Source: Porphyra umbilicalis
Lineage: Eukaryota > Rhodophyta > Bangiophyceae > Bangiales > Bangiaceae
Reading direction: 5' to 3'
NCBI GenBank assembly: GCA_002049455.2
Contig: KV919129.1
Span: 1 to 64,000, forward strand
DNA length: 64,000 nucleotides
Below, piece after piece: positions 5,284 to 54,037 of this stretch. The stretch's first letter is position 1, and each line of letters begins with the position of its first letter. Position numbers and translations under genes: made by a program. The notes below the pieces were generated by a model that did not search any database, was not told the origin of the DNA, and saw only the letters and a program-made list of their open reading frames with translations.

Positions 5284-8200
5284 ATGGTCGTGATGGCCTG
5301 CCCATGGAGGATCTGTCTTTGTTGGGGCCCTGGTGAGCGTGCTGGGGTAGCTTCACCGGCTACGGCGACTGCTACGGCTGAGTTGTCGACGGCGGCTGGC
5401 GACGGCAAGCCGTGTACCCATTTGAGCAGCAATCAAAGAGAGCACAACTCGATGGGTCTTTCGTCGTCGGCTCTCCCCGCTGCTCGATCGTCACCAGCAG
5501 CCGTTGGTGGCAGTCGTGGTGACGGTACTGAGAGAGGTCTTCCTCTGATGGATGGTGCAGCTACTGCATCTTATGGTGGAAGTGGCAGGGATGATCACAC
5601 TGTCGGTGGCGGGTGTTGTGATGCCGCTGACAAGGTCACGGGCGCGGAGAGCGGCGGACACACCAACCGGCTTGACCAAGTGGCGGGAAGGGACTATTCG
5701 CTGACGAAGTTTCGAGTGGTGTCATGTGTGCACCCAACTCGCAAGGTTGTTCCTGGCTCCGAGGTGCACGCATGCCTTGGCCGCAACGTCTACATATTGT
5801 GGAGCACTTCCCGACGAGCAGCACCCGCGACAGTAGCCTCTTTCCGTGCTGCTCGCCCATCCTGCATTCTCTTGGAGCGCGGCGCGGGCGCCCTGAGAGT
5901 TGCGGGCGAGGAGGAGGCCGCAGCTGGTGGTGGGCACCACACCAACCGCCTGTTGTTTTTGAGGGGCAAGGAGAGCAGCTCTACATCCAGCGTTCAAGAC
6001 CTGTCGGACGTTCAGCTGCTGCTCGAGGCGCCGTCGACGGGCATCTGCGCATCTTGGGTGACGGGAGGGCGGTCTCTCTTGACCCCGTGGGAGGTGCTGG
6101 TGGGCGCCGGCTTGAGCGGATGGAAGGAGGCCACGTGGGTGCATGAGCTGCTGAAGTCGGTGTTACCGCCGCTCCCGGAGGCCGCGGATGGGCGGCTTGG
6201 CACCGCATCAAGGATACTTGGTCACCACGGACGGCTTTTTGTGCTTAATGTGCAGCACTGGCTGGCGCCGTCAGCTTCTATCGAACCGACTGGTACGAGC
6301 GCCATCGGCCAAGTGGCGGACGTGGTCGACCAAGTGAGTAGCGTACCGGTCGTCGGACCCGTGCTGCGCTTGAGTCTCCTCGTCGTTCAAGTCGGTGCTC
6401 TGGCGGTTTTGGCGGAGGGCCATGACGCTCGGCGCAAGGACGCGGTTAAGAGGTGCGAGGACTTAGCCTTTGACCTTCTCTGCCGCATCTTTGAACAACT
6501 GCGCAACGACCCGACCGAGTTTGGCGCTGCTCATATTGAGCAGCTGTGTTCGTTGATGGCGCACGTGGAACACGTCCTGGAGGAGGTCGAGGCTACTTTC
6601 TTCATGACGCCCGTCAAGAACATGATGGCGAGCGCTCTTGTGGACGGGTGGGAAAGGCGGCTCAAGGACATCCACGACAAGCAGGTCACCTTGAACGCGC
6701 ACGGAGCGGTTGGCCGTGCGGTTGACCGGTTGGAAAGCGGCGTGGACGGGTTGATGAGGCGCGTGTCTGAGCTGAGGCGTCAACGGGCGGGGAGCGTCCC
6801 CGTCGAGCCGGACCTGTCAATGTACGAGATGGGCTGGCGTCCCCCCGTCTTGGGCGGCGACCACGTGGCGGGCGTCGGCAATCATGACCGTGTGGAGTTT
6901 GCGATCGTGTCGATGCTTGACGGCTACGCGCATGGAGAAGCCACCGAGGCCCCGCGAGTGGGCCTCTATGGGATTGGTGGTTGTGGAAAGTCGACTGCCT
7001 GTGCGGAGGTCGCAACGTGCGAGCGGGTGCGCACACTGTTCCCCCGGGGCACGGTCTGGGTGCAGCTGAACGACACGTCTACCTCGGAGACAGTCGCCAC
7101 TGCAGTCTTGGCTCTTGTGTACCAGTTGTGCGGGGAGGCCGCAACGAAACGCTGTCAGCGGCTGACACGGAGCAAGGACTTTGTATCGCTGGTGGCTTCG
7201 GACATGCAGGCGTCCTTGGTGGCAGATGCGTCCAAGTGGCTGATCATTATTGACGACGTACGCTTCGACCAGGTCGGCATGCTGACGCAACTACTGCTTG
7301 TCGTGCCGCGAGCTGCCCCGGTGTTGTTCACCACGCGGTCTGAGATGGTCGTCGCTCTGGTGACGGGCGCGATACGGATGGCCATTAGCTGCTGGCCAGA
7401 AGATGATGCTCGGGCGCTGCTGACCAAGGCTATCGGCAAGAGGCCAAGCATCGGCACGAGGCCAAGCAAGAACGATTCGACGTTCTCGGCTGAGGAGGAG
7501 ACCGCGTGGGTACGGCGGGTGCTCGACCTGACGCATTGCCACGTTCTATCCGTGAGTATCGTAGCGGCCCTCCTCTCGGCCCGCTGCGGAATGTGGCGGC
7601 CGGTAGTGGCGGCGCTGGAGCACCAATGGACGGACCCCTCCTTTCAGCGTCCTCTGTCCGGACTGAATCCGAGGCGTTCCGTGCGGGCGACGCTTGATAC
7701 AAGCCTAGAGCTTCTCCCTGACGACGTGCACCGCCGAGCGTTTGCAGCCCTTGGTGTCTTATCCGCCAACGAGCAGATTGGTTTGCACGTGCTCGATCGC
7801 CTGTGGCGGCCGCAACTCTGTGTCGTCGGTGGTGCAAGTGAGGGTGGTTGCCTCTCACTCCCACAAACGCACTGTGTCGAGGACCACGCGGTGCATCCGG
7901 GCGTTCTTCGGCTCGTGGATGCTCTCGTGCGGGCCGGACTCCTTCATCAAGAAGTCGCTGACGGGGACCTAGCAGGTGTAGTCCTTCATCCGGTCGTATG
8001 TGGTTATGCCCACAGCTTGCTGGGTGACGGCTTCGTTGCCGCCCATCAGCGGCTGGTGGATGAGTACGCCAGACACTGCCCCGCAGACCACGCGGACGCG
8101 CATGGGTGGCTCGGCTACCATTTTTGGACGACAGCTGATGATGGCTACTGGTGTAACAACGTAGCGCGGCATGCGGTGGCAAGTGAGGACATCTTCGCGC

Positions 8201-9069
8201 TGGCGTCTTTGGCAACTGATGAGTGGTACGCTGCTCGTGCGCGGACGGGGTCAACCGTCGGGCACCAAGCTGATGTGAGGTTGGTGCTGACGTCGCTGCG
8301 TGCTATGGTGGACGACACAGATCACTGGGTACACGACTCCCCGGTGCTCCTGGGCGCCGCACACTGGGGTCTGGCAATGGCCTTCCTCCGTCGCCTGGGG
8401 TGCAAGACGGCAGCAAACCAGGAGGCTGCCCTCATCCTGCTGCGGCGAGGCTTGGATGAGGTATCGCAAGCCGCTGCTCCTTTGCTTTGGGCGGAGATGC
8501 AGAACGACTTGGGCAACGTGTACTCGTATCGAGTTTCTGGCGACAAGGCGGCCAACTTTCAGAAAGCCGTTCGCTGCTACTACCACGCGCTGGAGGTGCG
8601 GATGCAAGAGACGCTGGCATGGGCAGAGACTCAGCACTGCTTGGGCATGGCGTACGCGGATCGAGAAGGCGGTGACAAGGTGGCAAACATGGAGGAGGCG
8701 TTGGCGTACTTCCGGCGCGCCCTCGACGTGCGCACTCGAGACGCCGCGCCGCTGCAATGGGCCGACACGACCCTCGAAATGGGCGCGGCCTATTCTGAGC
8801 GGGTTGACGGCGACAAGGCTGTCAACTTGGAAGAGGCGGTGGCGTGCTACGGGCGCGCGCTCGAGGTGTGGACGCGTGATCAGTTGCCGCTGCAATGGGT
8901 AGCGGCGCAGCACAGCTTGGGCAGGGCATTCACTCAGCGGGTGGACGGCGACAAGTCTGCAAACTTGGAAGAGGCGGTGGCCTGCTACCGGCGTGCCCTC
9001 GAGGTGTGGACGCGTGCGACGGTGCCGCAGCAATGGGCATCTACGCAGCTCAAGTTGGCTGAAGTTTAA
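5284..9069 (+). CDS. NLR-like receptor: HeLo/MLKL-like helical domain, NB-ARC ATPase, first TPRs; ends at an in-frame TAA
   Basis: Numbered from the first ATG (5284), residues 340-500 form an all-helical region beginning with a VPVVGP-type motif. It resembles the N-terminal four-helix bundle of MLKL and fungal HeLo-type cell-death domains (my judgement from pattern, not a search). The NB-ARC ATPase follows: P-loop GIGGCGKST at about 563-571, Walker B LIIIDDV at about 653-659, a VLFTTRS RNBS-B strand at about 680-686, a winged-helix segment around 800-840, and VVLHPVV near 900 in the place of the MHD motif. TPR units of 44-46 residues start near residue 1039. In the known family the ATPase acts as an ADP/ATP switch and the repeats as sensor, in the cytosol or at membranes. 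A second candidate start at 5452 begins MGLSSS, a possible N-myristoylation signal. Residues 1-340 match nothing I know. No intron is needed. The TAA at 9067 cuts the TPR array. Confidence 0.82.
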   Translation: MVVMACPWRICLCWGPGERAGVASPATATATAELSTAAGDGKPCTHLSSNQREHNSMGLSSSALPAARSSPAAVGGSRGDGTERGLPLMDGAATASYGGSGRDDHTVGGGCCDAADKVTGAESGGHTNRLDQVAGRDYSLTKFRVVSCVHPTRKVVPGSEVHACLGRNVYILWSTSRRAAPATVASFRAARPSCILLERGAGALRVAGEEEAAAGGGHHTNRLLFLRGKESSSTSSVQDLSDVQLLLEAPSTGICASWVTGGRSLLTPWEVLVGAGLSGWKEATWVHELLKSVLPPLPEAADGRLGTASRILGHHGRLFVLNVQHWLAPSASIEPTGTSAIGQVADVVDQVSSVPVVGPVLRLSLLVVQVGALAVLAEGHDARRKDAVKRCEDLAFDLLCRIFEQLRNDPTEFGAAHIEQLCSLMAHVEHVLEEVEATFFMTPVKNMMASALVDGWERRLKDIHDKQVTLNAHGAVGRAVDRLESGVDGLMRRVSELRRQRAGSVPVEPDLSMYEMGWRPPVLGGDHVAGVGNHDRVEFAIVSMLDGYAHGEATEAPRVGLYGIGGCGKSTACAEVATCERVRTLFPRGTVWVQLNDTSTSETVATAVLALVYQLCGEAATKRCQRLTRSKDFVSLVASDMQASLVADASKWLIIIDDVRFDQVGMLTQLLLVVPRAAPVLFTTRSEMVVALVTGAIRMAISCWPEDDARALLTKAIGKRPSIGTRPSKNDSTFSAEEETAWVRRVLDLTHCHVLSVSIVAALLSARCGMWRPVVAALEHQWTDPSFQRPLSGLNPRRSVRATLDTSLELLPDDVHRRAFAALGVLSANEQIGLHVLDRLWRPQLCVVGGASEGGCLSLPQTHCVEDHAVHPGVLRLVDALVRAGLLHQEVADGDLAGVVLHPVVCGYAHSLLGDGFVAAHQRLVDEYARHCPADHADAHGWLGYHFWTTADDGYWCNNVARHAVASEDIFALASLATDEWYAARARTGSTVGHQADVRLVLTSLRAMVDDTDHWVHDSPVLLGAAHWGLAMAFLRRLGCKTAANQEAALILLRRGLDEVSQAAAPLLWAEMQNDLGNVYSYRVSGDKAANFQKAVRCYYHALEVRMQETLAWAETQHCLGMAYADREGGDKVANMEEALAYFRRALDVRTRDAAPLQWADTTLEMGAAYSERVDGDKAVNLEEAVACYGRALEVWTRDQLPLQWVAAQHSLGRAFTQRVDGDKSANLEEAVACYRRALEVWTRATVPQQWASTQLKLAEV

Positions 9070-10340
9070 GAGCAGCGCATGGGCTGCGACACGGACGCGA
9101 AACAAGACCTTAAGGAGGAGATGCTGGCTTGCTACCGACGCGCCCTCGACGTGTGGACGCGGGAGGCATCGCCTGATGCCTGGGCACAGACGCAGGACCG
9201 CATGGGCAGGGCGTATGAGCAGGTGGTGGACGGCGACAGGGCAGCCAACGTGGAGAAGGCGATGGCGTGCTACCAACGCGCCCTTGACGTGTGGACGCGG
9301 GAGGCGGCACCTCATGCCTGGGCACAGAAGCAGGACCGCATGGGCAGGGCGTATGAGCAGGTGGTGGACGGCGACAGGGCGGTCAACTTGGCGAACGCGA
9401 TGGCATGCTACCAACGCGCCCTCGACGTGTGGACGCGCGAGGCGGCGCCTGATGCCTGGGCACAGACGCAGGACCGCATGGGCAGGGCGTATGAGCAGGT
9501 GGTGGACGGCGACAGGGCGGCCAACGCGGAGAAGGCGGTGGCATGCTACCAACGCGCCCTCGACGTGTGGACGCGGGAGGCATCGCCTGATGCCTGGGCA
9601 CAGACGCAGAACCGCATGGGCAGGGCGTATGAGCAGGTGGTGGACGGCGACAGGGCAGCCAACGTGGAGAAGGCGGTGGCATGCTACCAACGCGCCCTGG
9701 ACGTGTGGACGCTGGGCGCGGCGTCCTTGCAATGGGCCAGGACGCAGGTCCGTCTTGCCCACGCGTACAAGAAGCTGGTGGGTGATGACGAAGTGGCTAA
9801 CGAGGCCAAGATGGAGCAGATGAAGGCGTGTTTCCGTTGCGCGCTTGAAGTTTGGACGCGGGAGTCGGCGCCGACTTCGTGGGCCGAGACGCTCTTCAGC
9901 ATGGGCGAGGCCTGTATGTGGTGGGCGCATGGCGACAAGGCAGCGAGCATGGCGGAGGCGGTGGCGTGCTACAGGTGCGTCCTTGAAGTCTGGTCGCGGG
10001 AGGCTGCGCCAATGAAGTGGGCTATGGCGCAGCTGAACATGGCCTACGCGCTCAGGCGGCGCGCCAGCAGCGACGCGGCGGCAGACATGGAGGAGGCGCT
10101 GGTATGTTACCAACTCGCCCTCGAGGTGGTGACGCGAGAGTATGATGCGCATGAATGGGCCAGGGTGCAGTTCAGTATGGGCACGGCGTACGCGGAGCGG
10201 GTGTACGGTGACAAGGCGGCCAACTGGGAGGACGCGGTGGCGTGCTACCGGCGTGTACTCACGGTGCGGACGCGGGAGGCGACCCCACAGCTGTGGGCCA
10301 ATACGATGTGGAGGATGGTGGTTGCCCTCCATGGTGGCGG
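8398..10340 (+). repeat. TPR-encoding tandem repeat array (about 14 units, mostly 138 bp)
   Basis: Units begin at a GGCGAC/GGTGAC (Gly-Asp) codon pair: 8539, 8671, 8809, 8947, a degenerate copy near 9085, then 9232, 9370, 9508, 9646 and, more diverged, 9784, 9931, 10069 and 10207. After the first 132-bp step the spacing is almost always 138 bp (46 residues). The copies at 9232, 9370 and 9508 are nearly identical in DNA, including synonymous sites. Differences concentrate at a few codons after the Gly-Asp-Arg pair and around the second helix. This looks like recent unit amplification or gene conversion. Confidence 0.9.
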
Positions 10341-10467
10341 GTATTGGGTAGAGGCGTTGGAGAGAGCCCGCGCGCTGCAGGCCTTTGGGAGCAAGTGGGA
10401 GTGGTGGGGCGAGACGGAAGCCGCTCTCGCTGTCCGAGTGTCGCAGCTGGAGCGCGAGGTTGAGTAA
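9070..10467 (+). pseudogene. Continuation of the NLR TPR array in the same frame after the TAA
   Basis: The frame after the TAA at 9067-9069 is identical to that of the upstream part and carries the same TPR pattern without interruption (ACYRRALDVWTRE-type helices), ending at TAA 10465-10467. Together the two parts would make a protein of about 1,730 residues. The single stop is therefore a nonsense mutation, a sequencing error or a read-through site, not the natural end. The segment could also be translated alone from the ATG at 9079, but a TPR-only protein starting in mid-repeat is less likely. The last 60 residues lack the repeat and form a charged helical cap. Confidence 0.75.
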
Positions 10468-10825
10468 CCACCCATTGCGAGCACCATCGGCAATCTCTAC
10501 CTGGCGTTGACAGTGACGTCTTACCCGCATGACTGTCGCTGTTGGTGGGCGCGATCGACTGCACCGTCGGTGGAGGTAGACGTGTGGTGGCAGGGGGTGT
10601 TGCTCGGGCGCCTCGGTTCGAAGCTGCTGCACCACCCGCTGGTGTTTGAAAATATAACGTGGACATCTGCGTACGACGAGTGTGAGTTGGTTGGACCACG
10701 CCTTTTCTATGGCTCTTTGCAGCAGCGGCGGCCGTCGAGAACGAGCCGCAGACTTGAGAGGGGCCGTCTTCATGAATGAAAGCGCGAAGCGCAAAGAGCA
10801 CCATCGGTGTATATGGATAACGAAG
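10468..10825. other. No gene; region 3' of the NLR
   Basis: No repeat unit or domain continues past the TAA at 10465-10467, and no clear polyadenylation signal is seen. It separates the NLR from weak minus-strand coding candidates. Confidence 0.4.
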
Positions 10826-12098
10826 TCAAAGCAGCACACCCACAGTCACCCCATGCATCGCACCCACCAGATGACCCCATCTACACGTTCCCTCCTTCGA
10901 GCTATCACTCTTCTGTTCGCCACACAATGCCGCGCGCAGCCAGTAGGCGCGAAACGTCGCAGCGATGGCGTAGGCAACGCCGAACGCCGCCGTCACAGTT
11001 TCTGGTGCAGCGACGGTATGCACGTCCCGGCCCCTCCCCCCCCCCCCGCCGACGACGCCAACTCCCCACGCGTCTGCTACCAGCAGCAACCACGCGGCGG
11101 CCACGACCGTGGCGTGGCAGAGCGCCGCGCTGTCCTCTCCCAGTTGCTCTGCCACAAGCACCCGCAGGCCCCCATCTGGACGTTGGGAGCTTGCGGCCTC
11201 GGCGACCACGTCGACGTCGGTGGCCAGACGCGGCTGGCTTGTGGGCGGTACAAGTGGATGGCCACAGCGGGCTGCCGATTGAGAGGCGGAAGCAGCAGCA
11301 GCGGCATCCACGGCAGCGGCAGGGATAGACCTGGGGGCGACCAGGGGCGGCGCCAAGGGCGCCGGGACCCCGACAGCCCCAGTGGCCAGCCAAAGCGCGC
11401 CCGCACCGCTCAAGTGATGGCGGCGGCCACCGCCATCAGAATCGACGTCAACCGCGTCCACCGCCAGACGCCGCCCGCCGCTCATCGCACCGCCGTCAGT
11501 CACCGACACGACGTAATTGGAGTCACCCCCAACCGGCTGCCCCCCCCCCGGCGCCGCGTCGCGGCGTCGACCGCCCGAGGGTGACCACCTCCGCCAAAAT
11601 CACCGCGCAGATAGAAGCACACGACTGGATTGGAGTCAGCGCGGCCGAGGCGAAGAAGGACGACAGAGGTAGTGGGGCCTAGGGAGGGCCACCCCGTGAC
11701 CGCCGCCGCCGCCATCGTCGCCGCCGCCGCCGCCACCGCCACCGCCGCAGCCGCCGCCACTGCTGCCGATGCCGCTATTGCCCATAGCCGCCTCCCCCTC
11801 CGCCACTGGGCGCACACCCAACAGGCTTCCAAGCAAAGCCGTCCCCAATGCATGCGAAGCCGCGTCGACCGCCACCGCCGTCGTCGGCACGGCAACCACG
11901 TCGGGCGGCTCAACCATGCCTCGCCATTTTTGACGTCGTCACCCCCCCCCCCCCCCCCGTCAGAGCCGCCGCCTCGATCACCGCGAAGTAGAATGCCCGT
12001 ACAGCCGCCAGCCGCCTCCACGGCTGCTGGCTGCGTCTGCGACCACCGCAAAGTGAAGGGTGATCCCCGGCACAGCAAACCCATTCAGGATAAACCAT
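10826..12098 (-). other. Possible disrupted minus-strand coding region, Ala/Val/Gly-rich, unrecognised
   Basis: Reading right to left, stretches with protein-like composition alternate between frames: one from about 12090 to 11920 (containing AFYFAVIEAAALTGGGGGV), one from about 11917 to 11700 (Ala/Val-rich, then poly-Gly), and one from about 11509 to 10826. Two of them share a loosely repeated hydrophobic segment. C-runs and GCC repeats separate the frames. No domain is recognised, and the composition alone could open such frames, so this is only a candidate. Confidence 0.22.
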
Positions 12099-26903: not shown

Positions 26904-27998
26904 TCACGGCTGCGGTGGAGCCAACTCAATCGGGAGCGCGGGCAGAACGCCTTGCAAGGGACGCCCAGGTCCCGTCAACTCCGGCAAGTGCCGCCACAGC
27001 TCACGCCGAGCCTCCCGATAATGCCCCTGGATCGTGGCGAGGGGAATGGTCGCAAATGCAAGCACGTGCGTCAACCGGTCTGGCAATTCGGGGTGGTGGT
27101 ACGTCAGGTCTCGCACGTTGCGCTTGTAATCGGCAAAGGTAGGCTCAATGGAGGACAAGTTGGGAGAGTAGGGTGGCAGGTGAAGCAGCAGCACACCGTT
27201 CATCGTCAGAATCTCGTCTGCAACAGGATTGTGAACCGAGGCGTTGTCGTACAAGAGCACACAATCCGGCGGTTGGTCTGCCCACAAAGCCCCCGGCACG
27301 TACCCGTTCATCCGCCCGGCCAGGCTTGTGCAAAAAGCGACCCAATCGTCACCGGACTGCGCCGGCGGCACCTCGTTGACAGTCATCTCTAAAATCCCGG
27401 TGTTGCTGGAGATAGCGACGATTGAAGAGAAGCGTTGGCGGGGACGGGGATCGGGGGCGAGGGCCTCGAGCGGCTGGCCGACCAAGGATCGGCCCCGAGG
27501 TCGGATCATCTCTGCCCCGTGAATGTGCGTTTCGTCGGCGACAACGATGCATCTGTCCGGGATATGCCGCGCGAGCCGACAGTGGGCAATAACGAGCGCC
27601 AGGCTGCGCTCGCTTGCCAGTCGCTCCACTTTCTTGACCGAGAAGCCAATCAGACGTAACATTTCTCCCAGGGATGACACACTTGTTGGCCAGCGTGCGT
27701 CCCAATCCGGAAGCAAAGCCAACCGCTTGAAGATGGACGACAGCTCCCGTAAAAAGATCTCGGGATGCGTTCGAACAAGGCCGTCCAAGGCACGCAAAAA
27801 CGGAGCGTGAAAGCGAGCAGCGTCTGCGTGCCTGTTGTGGATTGCATCGTCTTCCCAAGGGGACCCGTGGCGTTGAAAGTTCGCCCACCATTTGTGGGCC
27901 GCAGCCAAACTGCAGCCCGCATGCAGCACGATGGAGTCCCATGGAAGGCCCCGTTGGCGATTACGGATGACCTGCCAGCGAACAGCCAGAGGAAACAT
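26904..27998 (-). CDS. Tc1/mariner (IS630-related) DDE transposase, apparently intact
   Basis: About 364 residues from the ATG at 27998, the usual length for this superfamily. The N-terminal helix-turn-helix is visible (FPLAVRWQVIRNRQRGLPWD, then a CSLAAAHKWW recognition helix). The catalytic triad lies in IVVADETHIHG (first Asp), VLLYDNASVH (second Asp) and YSPNLSSIEPTFADYK (Glu), with 33 residues between the second Asp and the Glu. The open frame continues upstream to 28142, but that part lies inside a separate inverted-repeat element, so the ATG just outside it is preferred. It ends TGA at 26904-26906. The family excises and reinserts DNA at TA sites. It is the only transposase frame in the window without an internal stop. 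Confidence 0.85.
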   Translation of the reverse strand: MFPLAVRWQVIRNRQRGLPWDSIVLHAGCSLAAAHKWWANFQRHGSPWEDDAIHNRHADAARFHAPFLRALDGLVRTHPEIFLRELSSIFKRLALLPDWDARWPTSVSSLGEMLRLIGFSVKKVERLASERSLALVIAHCRLARHIPDRCIVVADETHIHGAEMIRPRGRSLVGQPLEALAPDPRPRQRFSSIVAISSNTGILEMTVNEVPPAQSGDDWVAFCTSLAGRMNGYVPGALWADQPPDCVLLYDNASVHNPVADEILTMNGVLLLHLPPYSPNLSSIEPTFADYKRNVRDLTYHHPELPDRLTHVLAFATIPLATIQGHYREARRELWRHLPELTGPGRPLQGVLPALPIELAPPQP

Positions 27999-27999
27999 A

Positions 28000-28627
28000 T
28001 GGTGCGTGTCCCAAAAATGAGACATGCGCGGTTTCTGAAGGACTGACACATCACTGCACGGGGGCAGGCGGCGCGGGGTACGAGAAAATTCTCGACTTGC
28101 CTCCATGGAAAGAGCCTCTCCCGACGCGTGCTTGGCTGACAACTCCTTAATACCCGCCTGTGGGCCCTGTTCTGTGGACCTCTCAGATAACCCCGATCTT
28201 GGAGCCAGTCTTTTTCAGGTTCTTGGGGTTACAGGTTTGCAACGCCAAAGCTCATGTGCTAACTGGAGCTTCGAAGAGGGGTGTCCCAAATCGTGTTTTC
28301 TTCACAGGGGGCTACATGGGGGTCTTTTTCACGTTTTTATTGGTAAGGTCGTGCCCTTTTCTTCGTGCTCAAATTGTCAGCACATGCCTGCTCTAGTATC
28401 TGTGCATTTGATTGGGCCGCGTGATCGTCACCTGTCGAAGTTGCAATGAATGACACTTTCCCCCATGACACGTCAGGATGTGCCGCCTCTGATAACACTG
28501 TCAGGGGCTGTTCTGGAAGCACAGTGGGGCCGAGTGGGTCACATTACATGATCGGACCCTTGCAGAAGGCCAGTGGGCCGAGAAAAAATGAAAAAACCGC
28601 CATGTCTCATTTTTGGGACACGCACCA
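28000..28627. mobile_element. 628-bp TA-flanked element with about 37-bp inverted ends, abutting the transposase start
   Basis: TGGTGCGTGTCCCAAAAATG (from 28000) is found perfectly inverted at the right end, finishing at 28627. The match continues through AGACATG and, with one indel, GCGGTTT. TA borders both ends (27998-27999 and 28628-28629). No transposase is inside. This is the structure of a Tc1/mariner-type non-autonomous element sitting two bases from the ATG of the neighbouring transposase. Confidence 0.7.
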
Positions 28628-47035: not shown

Positions 47036-49399
47036 TTACATGTCAAAGAAGCTCTCGACGATAGCATCGAGGTCCCCCAGCTCGATGGGCGACTCGTCGT
47101 CGCAGTCATCGACGACTTCATCGGGCCAGCCCGCTGCAACATCCTGCGCCAGGGCGTGGGCGACGGCAGCGGCCACGGCAATCGGCTGGCCGCCTGGCGC
47201 CACAGGACCGTCCAGGGCTGCCAAAGCGGCCGCCACAGCATCCTCCACGTCCTCAACGCCCTCCTCGACGCCGCCGTCGGGCAGCACAACATCGCCAACA
47301 GCGCCCTCGCCTCCATTCCCGGCGGGGGATCGGGGGGGGGGGGCTGGAGCGCCCGGCGCGCCCGGTGAGCCCTCCATGCCCCCCCCCGCCTCGAGGGGGG
47401 GCGGGTCATCGGCAGCCACGTCCGGAGCGCCGTGCACGACGAGCCCACCATGCGCCCCGCCAAAATCTGCCACGTCGCTGCCGTCAACCAGCCGTAGCAA
47501 GAGCTGCTCAACGGATGACCGCACGTACTCGCCGATGATATCGCCACGGCGGAGCTGCTTCTGATTGACAATTATCTTCCATTGTTTGTCCACCTTGTCG
47601 TCGAGCGTGCGGTTCCGCTTCTGCGACAAGATAACCGAGAGGGCCTTGAAAGTCCTCTCAGAGGCCGCCGAGGAGGTCGGCAGGGAGAACAGCCGGTTGG
47701 CCAGGAAGTGCAGCGTCGGCCACTGGGTACCATACAGTTCCCACCACGTTGCGGGGTGCATCGTCCGGCCGCTCACGGCGGCGGTGCGCACATTCGTGTG
47801 TCGCAAGAAGCTGTCGAGCTCCCGAAGGATGGTCTGCTGGAGCGCGTCATCGCCGTCGCACAGGCTGTGCACGGCCCGCCCGCGAGTGACTGGCAGGTGC
47901 TCGCCCCCCCAGAGGTCGACGCCGACCTGCTAACGACACGGGGCGTAGAAAGGGTCGAGGTAAAAGGCCAAAACCATCAAGGGGTGTGAGTACGAGGAAA
48001 AATGGGCCATCAAACATTTGGACAGAAATGAACGCGCAGCACCAAGCGCACCGAAAAGATTACCGCGCAAGACAATACAAATAGCGGCAAATAAACCGAG
48101 GACAGAGGAGAGCGGGCAGGCGTCTGCCTCGAGTGAGGCCGACAAGCGAAAAAGCAGCTGAAGGCACGGCAAAAAGTCATTGGCGGTTGCCTCAATGGCA
48201 CCGTCGTTGATGACCTCAGCAACAGTTGGAGGCACAGCGAAGGCAAGGGAAGGAGGGCGGTGGGAGTTGAAAAGCAGAACCCGACGAAGACCAGGAAGGT
48301 TGTCGATGAACGCGTGTAGCGTCAGGCTCTGCCCCACCCAGAGGGTGGGGCTAAAGGTCCTCAGCTCGTTGACCTTGTTGCCCGCCGCTTTTTGCGTGGC
48401 ACGGTCGTTGGTCATATCCGCGCGCACTCGCGTACAGCGTCGGAAAAAAACAGTTGCAGCAATGATGAGCTTGAGAATCCGTGCAAAGGGCGGGCGTGCA
48501 CACAGCTCCTTGCCGACGAGGTTGACGGTGTGGGCAAAGCAGCCATAGGATGCCAGCACGAGGCCGTCCGCCTCGGCCATTTTCCGCATTGAGACCATCA
48601 CAGACGCGTTGTCCGTGCACAGCGCCCACAGCCTGCGACTGCAGAGTTCAAGCAGCCGCCTGCCCGTCGCCGTAACCGGCCATTTCTGCAAAGTGTCGGT
48701 CACTGGGAGCAGGATGGACACAGGCAAAGAGGCACGGAAAGCGAGCAGTAGGTTGGGGGCCGACGAGACGGTGGCACCCATGCGAAAAGACGCCATCAGG
48801 AGTGGTTTTGGGAGACACCCAATCACATTGTACGTGGACTTCCCGTTCACGTCCCCCGCCCCGTCGACGGTCACAGGCGCCGTGTCCGCGCCCCTGACAG
48901 CTGCGTCCACATGCGCCATCACTTCCCCACTTGCCGTGTCCAAGCGCGCGCCACCCACTGTACAGGGGTCACCCGGCTCACCAAAGCGACCACTAGAGAC
49001 AAGTAAAAAGAATGACTTCCACTCGGGCGAGTGGAACACAGAAAAGGGTAACCCACCTCCAAAAATAAGCATGGCACACCGCTGCTCCCAGTCATCCAAT
49101 ACATGAGGAGACAGGGGCGGCAAGATCTCTGCACCCGCGGAGCAACTCTCATCCGCCGCACCGGCACATGCCGGGATACCCAGCACAGCGGCTCGTACAT
49201 TCGGATAGAGTGCCCGCACAGCGACACACTCCAGGAGATGCTCCTTCGCTCGCGTCGCGCTGTCAGACATGCCTTTGTACTTTGTACAAAACGGGGCGCA
49301 GCATGACAAAACCCGCTTGCCATCCACGATCGTTATCTCGATAAATCTCCACATGGGTGCAGGAGGCTTCTTCCTCTTGCGAATGAGAGGTGGGACCAT
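47036..49399 (-). pseudogene. hAT-superfamily transposase (BED finger, DUF659-type), complete except for one TAG
   Basis: From the ATG at 49399 the frame covers 787 residues broken only by TAG at 47930-47932. Order: a BED-type zinc finger (CCAPFCTKYKG...H...C at about residues 30-60), the first catalytic Asp in VTVDGAGDVNGKSTYNVIGC, the second in WALCTDNASVMVSMRKM, then YGCFAHTVNLVGKEL. A long helical insertion follows, then FYLDPFYAPCR before the stop. After it comes the dimerisation region with the catalytic Glu in TSSAASERTFKALS and a LDDKVDKQWKIIVNQ segment. A Gly/Pro/Asp-rich tail ends at 47036. hAT enzymes cut and paste with hairpin intermediates and make 8-bp target duplications. The single nonsense codon sits between core and C-terminal region. 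Confidence 0.8.
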
Positions 49400-49696
49400 G
49401 GTGGCAGAGTGCGTGGGGGTGGTAGCGATGGGTGTGTGTAACACAACGGGCCAGACACAAAGCACACCGGTGAGGACGACCGAGAGGGGGAGCAGTGTGG
49501 CGGATGCGACAACGACGGACGCCGGTCAGCGACCACGGCGATCAAGCCCGGGGTCATGCTCCACTCAGAGCGAGACACGTTTGTAAGACGGCGTAAGAAT
49601 TTCACGTAACGTGAAAGACTCGCAGGAAAGCGTCAGTGAGAGGGTCTTGAAATTTCATGCGAAATGACACGACGTGGCGTCAGATTGTACATCACT

Positions 49697-51478: not shown

Positions 51479-54037
51479 ATGGCCGGCCGGCCGCGGCCGC
51501 GGCCGCGCGCTCCCCCCCGCCCCCCCCCCGGCTTCCACCCCCCCCCGGCGGCAGCTCCTCCCCCCCCCCCCCCCCGGCAGCGGCGCGGGCCCCCTCTCCC
51601 TCCCCCACCTCCGCCCCGCCGCCGCCGCCGCCGCCGTCGCGCGCGCGGGCGCCTTTTGGGCGGCCGCCGCCCGCGTGTACGGGGCGTACAAGCTGACGGG
51701 CGTCCGCGCCGCGGCGGCGGCGGTGCGCGCGGGCGGCGGCGCCGCGGGGCGCGACGCGGCCGCGGCGGTGTGGGCGCGGCAGCACGCGTGGGCGGGGCGC
51801 GCCATGCGGGGGGTGTGCGTCGGCCTCGGGGGGTTTTACGCCAAGGCGGGGCAGTTTTTGGCGACGCGCGTTGATTTTGGTGCGTTGCGGGGGGGAGGGG
51901 GCGTGGGAGGGGAGGGGGTGCGGGGGGAGGGGGGGTACGTGCGATGGTGTGGGCCAGGAACGCAGTGGGCGGTGGTGCCGCCTGGCGGCAGCGCGGCGGT
52001 GGGTCTGTGGGTCACCGACTGACGCGCCTGCCGTTTTTCTTGGTTTGCTCGGGGTGCCGTCTTTTGACTGGTGACCGACCACCCACGCACCGCCTGCTTC
52101 TGCCGCCGCCGTCCCCCCCTCCCCAGTCCCCCTCCCCATCTGCCGCGCCCTCCACACGGTCCACACGGAGCTGCCGCCCTTCCCCGCCGGCACCCCCCCC
52201 GCGCTCCTCGACGCGGCCTTCCCCGGCCACCCCCTCACCGACCTGTCGGCCGAACCCATCGCCGTTGCGTCCGTCGCGCAGGTGCATACGGCCACCACCC
52301 GCGGCGGCGGCGGCGGCGACCGCCGCCATCCCCCCACCCCCGTCATTGTCAAATTCGCGCGGCCGGGGGGCCTCGCGACCATGGCCGCCGACATGGCCAA
52401 CGTCGGCGCCCTCGCGCGGCTGCTCACCATCACGGACATCCCGTTTGACCTCAGCGGCGCCGTGGCGGAGCTCCGCGCGCAGCTGGCGGGGGAGTTTGAC
52501 TTGGCCCGCGAGGCGGCGGTGCTGTCCGAGGTGGGGGGAACCTCGACCGCCTCGCGCGGGGGGGGCGGGGCGCCGCCTGCGGCGGTGGCGGCGGTGGGGG
52601 CGCGCCGTCGCCCTCCCGCGGGTGGTCGATGGCATGGCGGGGGGGGGGGTGCTCGTCATGACGCGCGTGGGGGGGGTGCCGCTCAGCCGCATGGGCGTGG
52701 GGGGGGAGCAGGGGGGGGGGGGGGCGGTGCGGCAGAGGGGGGGTGCGCGGAGCCGTAGCGGGCTGGGCGCAGCGGCGGGCAGTGCGCAGGATTCTGCGAC
52801 AGCTATACCGGGCGTATGGGGCTATGGTGCTCGTCGACGGGCTGCATCACGCGGACAGGTATGGGGCGTCGGCGCGTCGTTGAGCGGGGGGAGGGTGTCT
52901 GCTTCTGAGCTCGTTTCGGAGGTCTGGTGCGTGGAGGCGCGTCGACCGGCTTCCTCGTCGAGCGTGGATACTGACGGCTGCGCCTGCTCGTTTCATGCCC
53001 TGCGCGGTGTTCCTTTCATGTTCCTGCCCTGCTTTTACATTTTTCTCTTTTGCCCTGCCGCTCCTCCGTCTCCCCGCCCCCTACTCCATAGCCACCCTGG
53101 CAACATCCTCATTGACCGCCACTGGAGCGGCCCGCGCGTCGGCCTCGTGGACTTTGGCCAAGCCAAGCGCCTGACGCCCGCCCAACGCACGGGCATTGCG
53201 CGGCTGGTGGTGGCCCTCGCCGACGGCGACGCGGCGGCCACCGAGGCGCGGCTCACCGCCCTCGGCGTCCGCATTGCGTATGGCAAGGGCGCGGCGGCGG
53301 CCGCCGCGGCGGGCGCCCCCGCGGGCGCCGCCCCCGCGGCTGCGGCGGCGGCGCCGCCTCCCCCGCCGTCCACCGCCCCCACCGCCGCCGCCGCCGCCGC
53401 CACCGCCCGTCGGCGGCGGCCGCTCATTGCGCGCCGCGTCGGCGTGCCCGCCGCCGCCGCGTCGCCGGCGCCGCCCCTAACCGTCGCGCAACGCCACGCG
53501 TATGGGATGTTTGATACGGCCGAGCGGCCCGGCGTCAACGTCAACCCGTTTGGGAATGCCGAGTTGGCGGCGGCGCCCGTGGCGGCCTTCCCCCGCGACC
53601 TCTTTTTCCTCCTCCGCACCGTCCAAATCCTCCGCGGCGTCGCCGCGGGGGCGGGCGTGGGGGACGACCCCAGGGGGGGGTTGGTCGCCGCCTGGGCGCC
53701 GCTCGCGCGGGCGGTGCTCGCCGCCGAGGGGGGGGGGGGTGAGGGGGGGAGCGCGGGGGGAGCCGACTGCGTTTCATGCCCGCACGCGACGGGGCCGCCG
53801 CGGGCGGCGGGGGCGCGTGCACCGTGTGGGGCAAGGAACGCGACGGACATTGCTCTAAAAAAAAAAAAGACACGTGCTGCAAAAAAAGAAAGAGAGAAGG
53901 AAGAAACCGAGTCGAGAAAGAACACCCAGTCGAGCAGACGCACCCAGGTCGAGACCCCCCGGCCGCGGCACACGGCACGGAATAATAGCGCAGACGGGCG
54001 CGGATGCCGCTGGTGGTCTCTAGGACCCCTTGGGTGA
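51479..54037 (+). CDS. ABC1/ADCK/UbiB-family atypical kinase, three visible exons, frame changes at G- and C-runs
   Basis: Exon 1 (to 51879) contains the family's KxGQ motif in GGFYAKAGQFLATRVDF. Exon 2 (52127-52858) has AVASVAQVH, the ATP-binding Lys in VIVKFARPG, GEFDLAREAAVLSE, then NLDRLAR, RAVALPRVVDGM with VLVMTRVGGVPLS, and RILRQLYRAYGAMVLVDGLH. Exon 3 (from 53092) completes HADSHPGNILI (catalytic loop), LVDFGQAKRL (DFG) and a C-terminal FPRDLFFLLRTVQILRG. These are the signatures of ABC1 kinases, which in mitochondria and plastids support quinone and lipid metabolism. Exon 2 needs three frame changes, all at G-runs (about 52533-52538, 52558-52565, 52696-52720). The ATG at 51479 reaches the exon 1 frame only through a change in the C-run at about 51560. 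The stop at 54035 is uncertain for the same reason. A Pro/Ala-rich insert interrupts the C-lobe at about 53290-53470. Confidence 0.85.
51880..52126 (+). other. Intron 1 of the ABC1-family kinase gene
   Basis: Donor TTTTG|GTGCGT and acceptor CCCCCTCCCCAG|TCC with a long pyrimidine tract. The phase-1 join gives VDFVPLPICRAL, fitting the family consensus after the KxGQ helix. Length 247 bp. Confidence 0.8.
52859..53091 (+). other. Intron 2 of the ABC1-family kinase gene
   Basis: Donor GACAG|GTATGG and acceptor CTACTCCATAG|CCAC after a C/T-rich stretch. The phase-2 join exactly rebuilds the catalytic loop HADSHPGN from its two halves. Length 233 bp. Confidence 0.9.

Follow-up and report, generated by a model that had tools for sequence, protein, structure and literature searches.

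An interrupted NB-ARC-TPR gene of the red alga Porphyra umbilicalis and the conserved, possibly effector-like cassette ahead of its nucleotide switch

NLR-like genes, in which an NB-ARC domain is joined to a repeat array, have been described in red algae: the accessible parts of the published accounts report three NB-ARC+WD40 genes and one NB-ARC+TPR gene that rise upon oomycete infection in Pyropia yezoensis (PMC6928737), 61 NB genes in Chondrus, 58 of them with WD40 repeats (PMC7145615), and 'two families' of NB-ARC proteins in multicellular red algae (PMC8307928). Here we analyse a gene of this kind in 64,000 nucleotides of Porphyra umbilicalis DNA (contig KV919129.1, positions 1 to 64,000; hereafter the window), lying within contig C369 of the genome that was searched (83.8 Mb, 665 contigs). 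The gene copy extends over 5284..10467 of the plus strand, with its frame broken at 9067-9069, and ahead of its NB-ARC domain it carries a cassette of two conserved parts, an N-terminal module (N-module) and a helical block. The genes of Pyropia, Porphyra and Chondrus have the same central domain and comprise both repeat types found here, TPR and WD40, but the accessible text of those three papers gives for them NB-ARC, the repeats and, for Chondrus, TIR, and mentions neither the N-module and block nor the all-or-none split reported below. Moreover, while 23 of the 58 Chondrus NB-WD40 genes are said, in the accessible part of PMC7145615, to carry TIR, a search of the present genome with TIR (PF01582) gave one sub-threshold match (E 0.013), on contig C187 and not at an NLR locus. 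The kind of gene is published, and in the open-licence literature we found no description of an N-terminal cassette or bundle of red-algal NLRs.

Outside the red algae, brown-algal NB-ARC-TPR genes resemble the window family in having NB-ARC and a TPR array with repeats varying between copies, whereas exon shuffling is reported for them in the accessible part of PMC10197012 and the red-algal array here stands in continuous frames. The plant coiled-coil (CC)/RPW8 and the fungal HeLo/HELL NLRs would work in a similar manner, with a helical N-terminal part placed before the nucleotide switch and the repeat sensor, and a helix with membrane propensity is common to both; green-lineage N-terminal bundles are treated in the accessible part of PMC10952240. 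They differ from the present family in that there is no sequence match, that the block here is internal behind the N-module, and that TPR or WD40 repeats replace leucine-rich repeats. For the block, a helical bundle similar in size to that of MLKL is predicted at low confidence; unlike MLKL it has no MLKL_N match, and no pseudokinase was found at the locus. At issue is whether helical bundles that act on membranes and are coupled to NLR switches had one origin or several; red algae do not belong to the green lineage.

An earlier note on this DNA, made from the letters alone, had drawn a parallel with NB-ARC/TPR proteins of brown algae. The host is a red alga, because phycobiliprotein genes stand on contig C665, a 185-kb plastid contig that holds 10 of the 11 Phycobilisome matches of the genome profile search. 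The nearest PDB entries of its apcB, 6kgx and 5tjf, are ones that we take to be red-algal. With NB-ARC and TPR repeats in one gene, a multigene family and a red-algal host, the locus belongs to the red-algal NB-ARC-TPR genes.

The first ATG of the window copy is at 5284, and the ATG at 5293 lines up with the start region of the relatives. Upstream of NB-ARC follow in order a linker of about 135 amino acids (aa), the conserved N-module of about 190 aa (5689..6270) and the helical block of about 165 aa (6289..6783, residues 348-512 of the frame from 5248). The NB-ARC match of Pfam (PF00931) spans 6955..7449, including P-loop and Walker B, and scores 50.2 bits (E 2.7e-13), the cut-off being 23.5. 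The motifs that the earlier note had read are all in the translation, namely GIGGCGKST as the P-loop, LIIIDDV as Walker B, a strand with FTTR and, with His-Pro in the place of MHD, VLHPVV (7981..7998); the P-loop, the Walker B Asp, F-T-R and the His at the MHD position are invariant in 12/12 alignment rows. The PDB matches of the NB-ARC profile at E<=0.001 are eight, namely four sequences of plant NLRs and four of APAF1. The repeat array at 8521..10326 contains 13 TPR units counted by pattern, usually of 138 bp (46 aa) and spaced 44-49 aa; with one degenerate unit directly upstream, recognized by eye, the total comes to about 14, as the earlier note had it, and TPR families are over the cut-off in both pieces of the split frame. 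The family thus has the NLR-like (STAND) layout of N-terminal domain, nucleotide switch and repeats, in the window interrupted within the repeats, and we regard the NLR-like nature of the gene as near certain. Three adjacent TPR units (9214..9627) are 84-86% identical, which would reflect a recent local expansion. Antisense to the array there is an 862-aa open frame (8251-10839, minus strand), probably a by-product of the GC-rich repeats since the relatives L046 and L048 also have antisense frames.

The gene belongs to an expanded family. While PF00931 gave 41 matches over the genome, a 573-aa window query (pre-NB-ARC region, NB-ARC and the following part) gave 54 stretches, which reduce to 45 NB-ARC loci of the TPR class after dropping two weak WD40-class rows and merging pieces within 4.5 kb. 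N-module and helical block are both present at 26 of these loci, counting contig C390 despite its being a near-duplicate of C211, and both absent at 19; at no locus is only one of them present. By themselves, the N-module finds 33 genome stretches at E<=0.01 (alignment A5, 8 rows) and the block 32 (weakest E 1.1e-8; alignment A1, 8 rows). The block is therefore a conserved unit, as the earlier note had it, but not the start of the protein, since linker and N-module come first. Of its 32 stretches, 30 are at NB-ARC loci and the other two, on contig C116, stand near a lone N-module stretch, this place having no NB-ARC locus in the list of 45. Among the 19 loci without the cassette, 14 match the query from position 8-13, so that the start of NB-ARC is present in them; the other five begin later (54-298) and may be fragments, so for these the absence is weaker. 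Four examined cassette-less loci have a short leader followed by the NB-ARC part; three of these four (L044, L045, L046, L047) have in the leader a Met-Gly as a possible start. In a tree of 16 rows, 9 cassette-bearing TPR-class rows form one clade (100/99). With four more cassette-bearing rows (20 rows, taking in 17 of the 45 loci) the single clade is broken; the best tree has 4 changes, of which well-supported branches force only 1. Since this larger tree mixes cassette-bearing and cassette-less rows, repeated loss of the cassette is suggested. The cassette thus offers a concrete part for a with/without comparison inside one genome. It is noted that the NB-ARC regions at C87:91909-97559 (minus) and C3:132793-135809 (plus) each fall into two collinear parts, separated by about 4 kb and 1.4 kb, perhaps due to insertions.

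A comparable arrangement is found in a second class. Among the top 20 NB-ARC loci, 18 belong to a non-TPR class, in which a WD40-like motif pattern occurs in 6-13 copies in one frame of 17 of the 18 loci and is absent from L015; a whole-locus scan of L009 put WD40 over the cut-off. A module and a helical block stand ahead of NB-ARC in this class too, as aligned for 14 of the 18 loci (alignment A2; L012, L018, L020 and L024 were left out, with frames starting inside the block, the P-loop of L018 unmatched by the pattern, and L024 not included). The comparison of the TPR-class and WD40-class blocks gave an hhalign score of 21.1, as against a column-shuffle mean of 12.4, with 2 of 150 shuffles as high, and reversed controls of 12.0 and 11.6. 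The WD40-class block has 21 stretches, 19 of them at places with NB-ARC matches and two, on C413 and C87, at places without; that on C413 holds a stop. That on C87 (129000-131000, L053) is in an open frame which has the WD40-class N-module and block, ends right after the block and lacks NB-ARC, and would be either a free cassette or a truncated gene. Stand-alone kinases or lipases with the same bundle had been proposed as relatives to look for: no kinase or lipase carrying the block was found in the genome, and the lone WD40-class cassette is the stand-alone relative that was.

We now consider what the block may be. Its identity as a HeLo/MLKL bundle, which the earlier note had advanced, finds no backing at the level of sequence: Pfam at E<=10, over sets of 8 and 14 blocks and over the window block again, brought up none of the MLKL_N, HeLo, RPW8 or coiled-coil families; the two block profiles hit 7 and 1 rows among PDB sequences, all of them unrelated and with an E of 0.25 and 0.59 at best; and MLKL_N searched over the genome gave 0 candidates, the power of this profile on such a genome being uncertain. 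A single-sequence AlphaFold model of the block has helices of a number and length fitting a bundle, at a low confidence (predicted local distance difference test, pLDDT, 54.5); a longer piece with the block reaches a pLDDT of 41.5, also low. Of the 568 matches that Foldseek found for the block model at E<=10, none reaches E<=0.001; the 50 of them that are listed are designed repeats, EthR, 14-3-3 and similar, and the VIA-align matches listed for both low-confidence models are likewise generic helical proteins. There are no MLKL or HeLo entries among the listed matches of either program, which, from models of such low confidence, proves nothing. The resemblance of the block to cell-death bundles would thus lie in general features only. 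As to the N-module, the end of the WD40-class module looks PH-like to the eye, but such a fold is unsupported: at E<=10, PF00169 gave 5 places over the genome, all of them away from NLR loci, and the N-module against PDB profiles gave no PH-domain match.

One feature of the block is nevertheless consistent with a membrane-acting bundle, which makes such a bundle plausible. In a hydrophobicity scan of the longest open frame of 25 loci, the most hydrophobic 19-mer of the 1273-aa window frame is in the first helix of the block (6358..6414, mean Kyte-Doolittle 2.02). This helix holds the first rank in 7 of the 8 TPR-class frames and the third in the eighth; it precedes the P-loop by 204 residues in six frames and by 200 and 202 residues in the remaining two. 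For 10 of the 13 WD40-class frames, the four highest peaks include one that lies 189-209 residues ahead of the P-loop.

We propose that the window locus is an interrupted copy of a red-algal NB-ARC-TPR receptor family with an effector-like N-terminal cassette, a reading to which we give about even chances. In an intact member, the TPR superhelix would sense a ligand or a host protein, upon which NB-ARC would swap its nucleotide and oligomerise, and the N-terminal cassettes so clustered, each with its N-module and its block with the very hydrophobic helix, would act on a membrane or recruit a partner, leading to cell death or defence. Taking the block for a cell-death domain is a working guess, to which we give somewhat less than even chances. 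By analogy with the published expression in another red alga, an immune role of the family seems likely.

A number of results weigh against this proposal. No profile, whether of Pfam, PDB or MLKL_N, links the block to a membrane-acting family. The block link between the two classes is modest, with an HH probability of 3% and one shuffle at 34.7, and in the profile comparison the N-modules of the TPR and WD40 classes do not match each other. In 3 of the 13 WD40-class frames, none of the four highest hydrophobic peaks lies where it would be expected. The activity of HeLo/HELL depends, according to the accessible part of PMC10197012, on a helix situated N-terminally, and the hydrophobicity scan finds no membrane-prone helix at the N-terminus of the window protein, its hydrophobic helix being internal, about 359 residues after the ATG at 5284. 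The cassette is lacking at 19 of the 45 loci, and the stop speaks against the window copy as a whole receptor.

The absence of any match of the block to MLKL_N, HeLo, RPW8 or coiled-coil families speaks for the block being an oligomerisation or adaptor domain that passes the signal to another protein instead of executing at the membrane; the N-module flanks the block, so that its first helix is not free, which points the same way. By contrast, the strong hydrophobicity of this helix, at a nearly equal distance from the P-loop in both classes, argues for the membrane, and we consider the adaptor doubtful. It can also be supposed that the family serves allorecognition or development instead of antimicrobial defence, as fungal allorecognition is under the control of NLR-like proteins in the accessible part of PMC10197012. 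The relatives in Pyropia respond to infection (accessible part of PMC6928737), and this alternative seems to us unlikely. Still less probable is that NB-ARC derives from bacterial-type regulators without such effectors. In bacteria, according to the accessible part of PMC7145615, NB-TPR and NB-WD40 are frequent layouts; but the best PDB matches of the NB-ARC profile are plant NLRs and APAF1, and no relative was confirmed in plasmids, among 263 stretches from prokaryote contigs or in viral contigs, the searches of the latter two being pattern-limited.

For the window copy itself the rival reading is that it is a plain pseudogene, a member of the multigene family that has lost any function, which is rather probable. 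The earlier note had taken the gene as uninterrupted, but the in-frame TAA at 9067..9069 divides the frame into 1273 aa and then 462 aa from the next ATG. As the TAA cuts the TPR array, either the product of the copy is truncated or the copy is a pseudogene of recent date; and since the product predicted from the ATG at 5284 (1261 aa) ends after the fourth pattern-counted TPR unit, a truncated or dead copy is more likely than a working receptor. Other copies also carry single stops (L027 with its near-duplicate L028, and L038), as against five that are open over the stretches fetched (L037, L039, L040, L041, L048). On the other side, the window stop is a single one of the substitution type in a frame that otherwise remains open, the 1261-aa product retains the cassette, NB-ARC and four or five TPR units, and dN/dS (the ratio of nonsynonymous to synonymous substitution) is low in the comparisons of the window copy. 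Over 10 pairs it is 0.21-0.50 for the N-module, 0.18-0.43 for the block, 0.17-0.48 for NB-ARC, 0.18-0.42 for the first TPRs and 0.41-0.61 for the later ones, the pooled range being 0.16-0.50 when the linking parts are taken together with N-module, block, NB-ARC and first TPRs; for the N-terminal linker it is 0.50-1.10 in the nine pairs that yield a value, the tenth yielding none. These values point to purifying selection on the family, although, being pairwise, they reflect mostly older history and not the current function of the window copy. Note also that L027 and L028, on contigs C211 and C390, align over 6 kb without a single mismatch but with 25 gap openings, which points to insertion/deletion errors in some contigs, and the window stop therefore calls for confirmation. 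C390 looks like an unpolished duplicate of C211, and the break in the N-module frame of C390 may be artefactual.

Returning to the proposed receptor family, the distribution of the cassette allows a wider and tentative conjecture, which we hold to be less probable than not by a good measure: red algae would have evolved, or kept from an ancient source, one effector cassette that is used by both WD40- and TPR-type NLRs, gained or lost as a unit and able to stand alone, that is, a sensor/helper network like that of plants with an effector class not yet described. If so, one genome would hold executor receptors with the cassette, sensor receptors without it and one free cassette. The stand-alone cassette on C87 adds a little to this sensor/executor reading.

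Elsewhere in the window, a 412-aa transposase-like frame lies at 26904-28142 (minus strand), with a DDE_3 match of E 2.4e-11. At 47036-49465 (minus strand) there are two frames with the look of a hAT-type transposase; for the one of 511 aa, Pfam gave nothing at E<=0.001. A frame at 51944-54037 (plus strand) has a match, partial and ABC1-kinase-like (E 2.4e-6), and may be one exon of a gene of this type.

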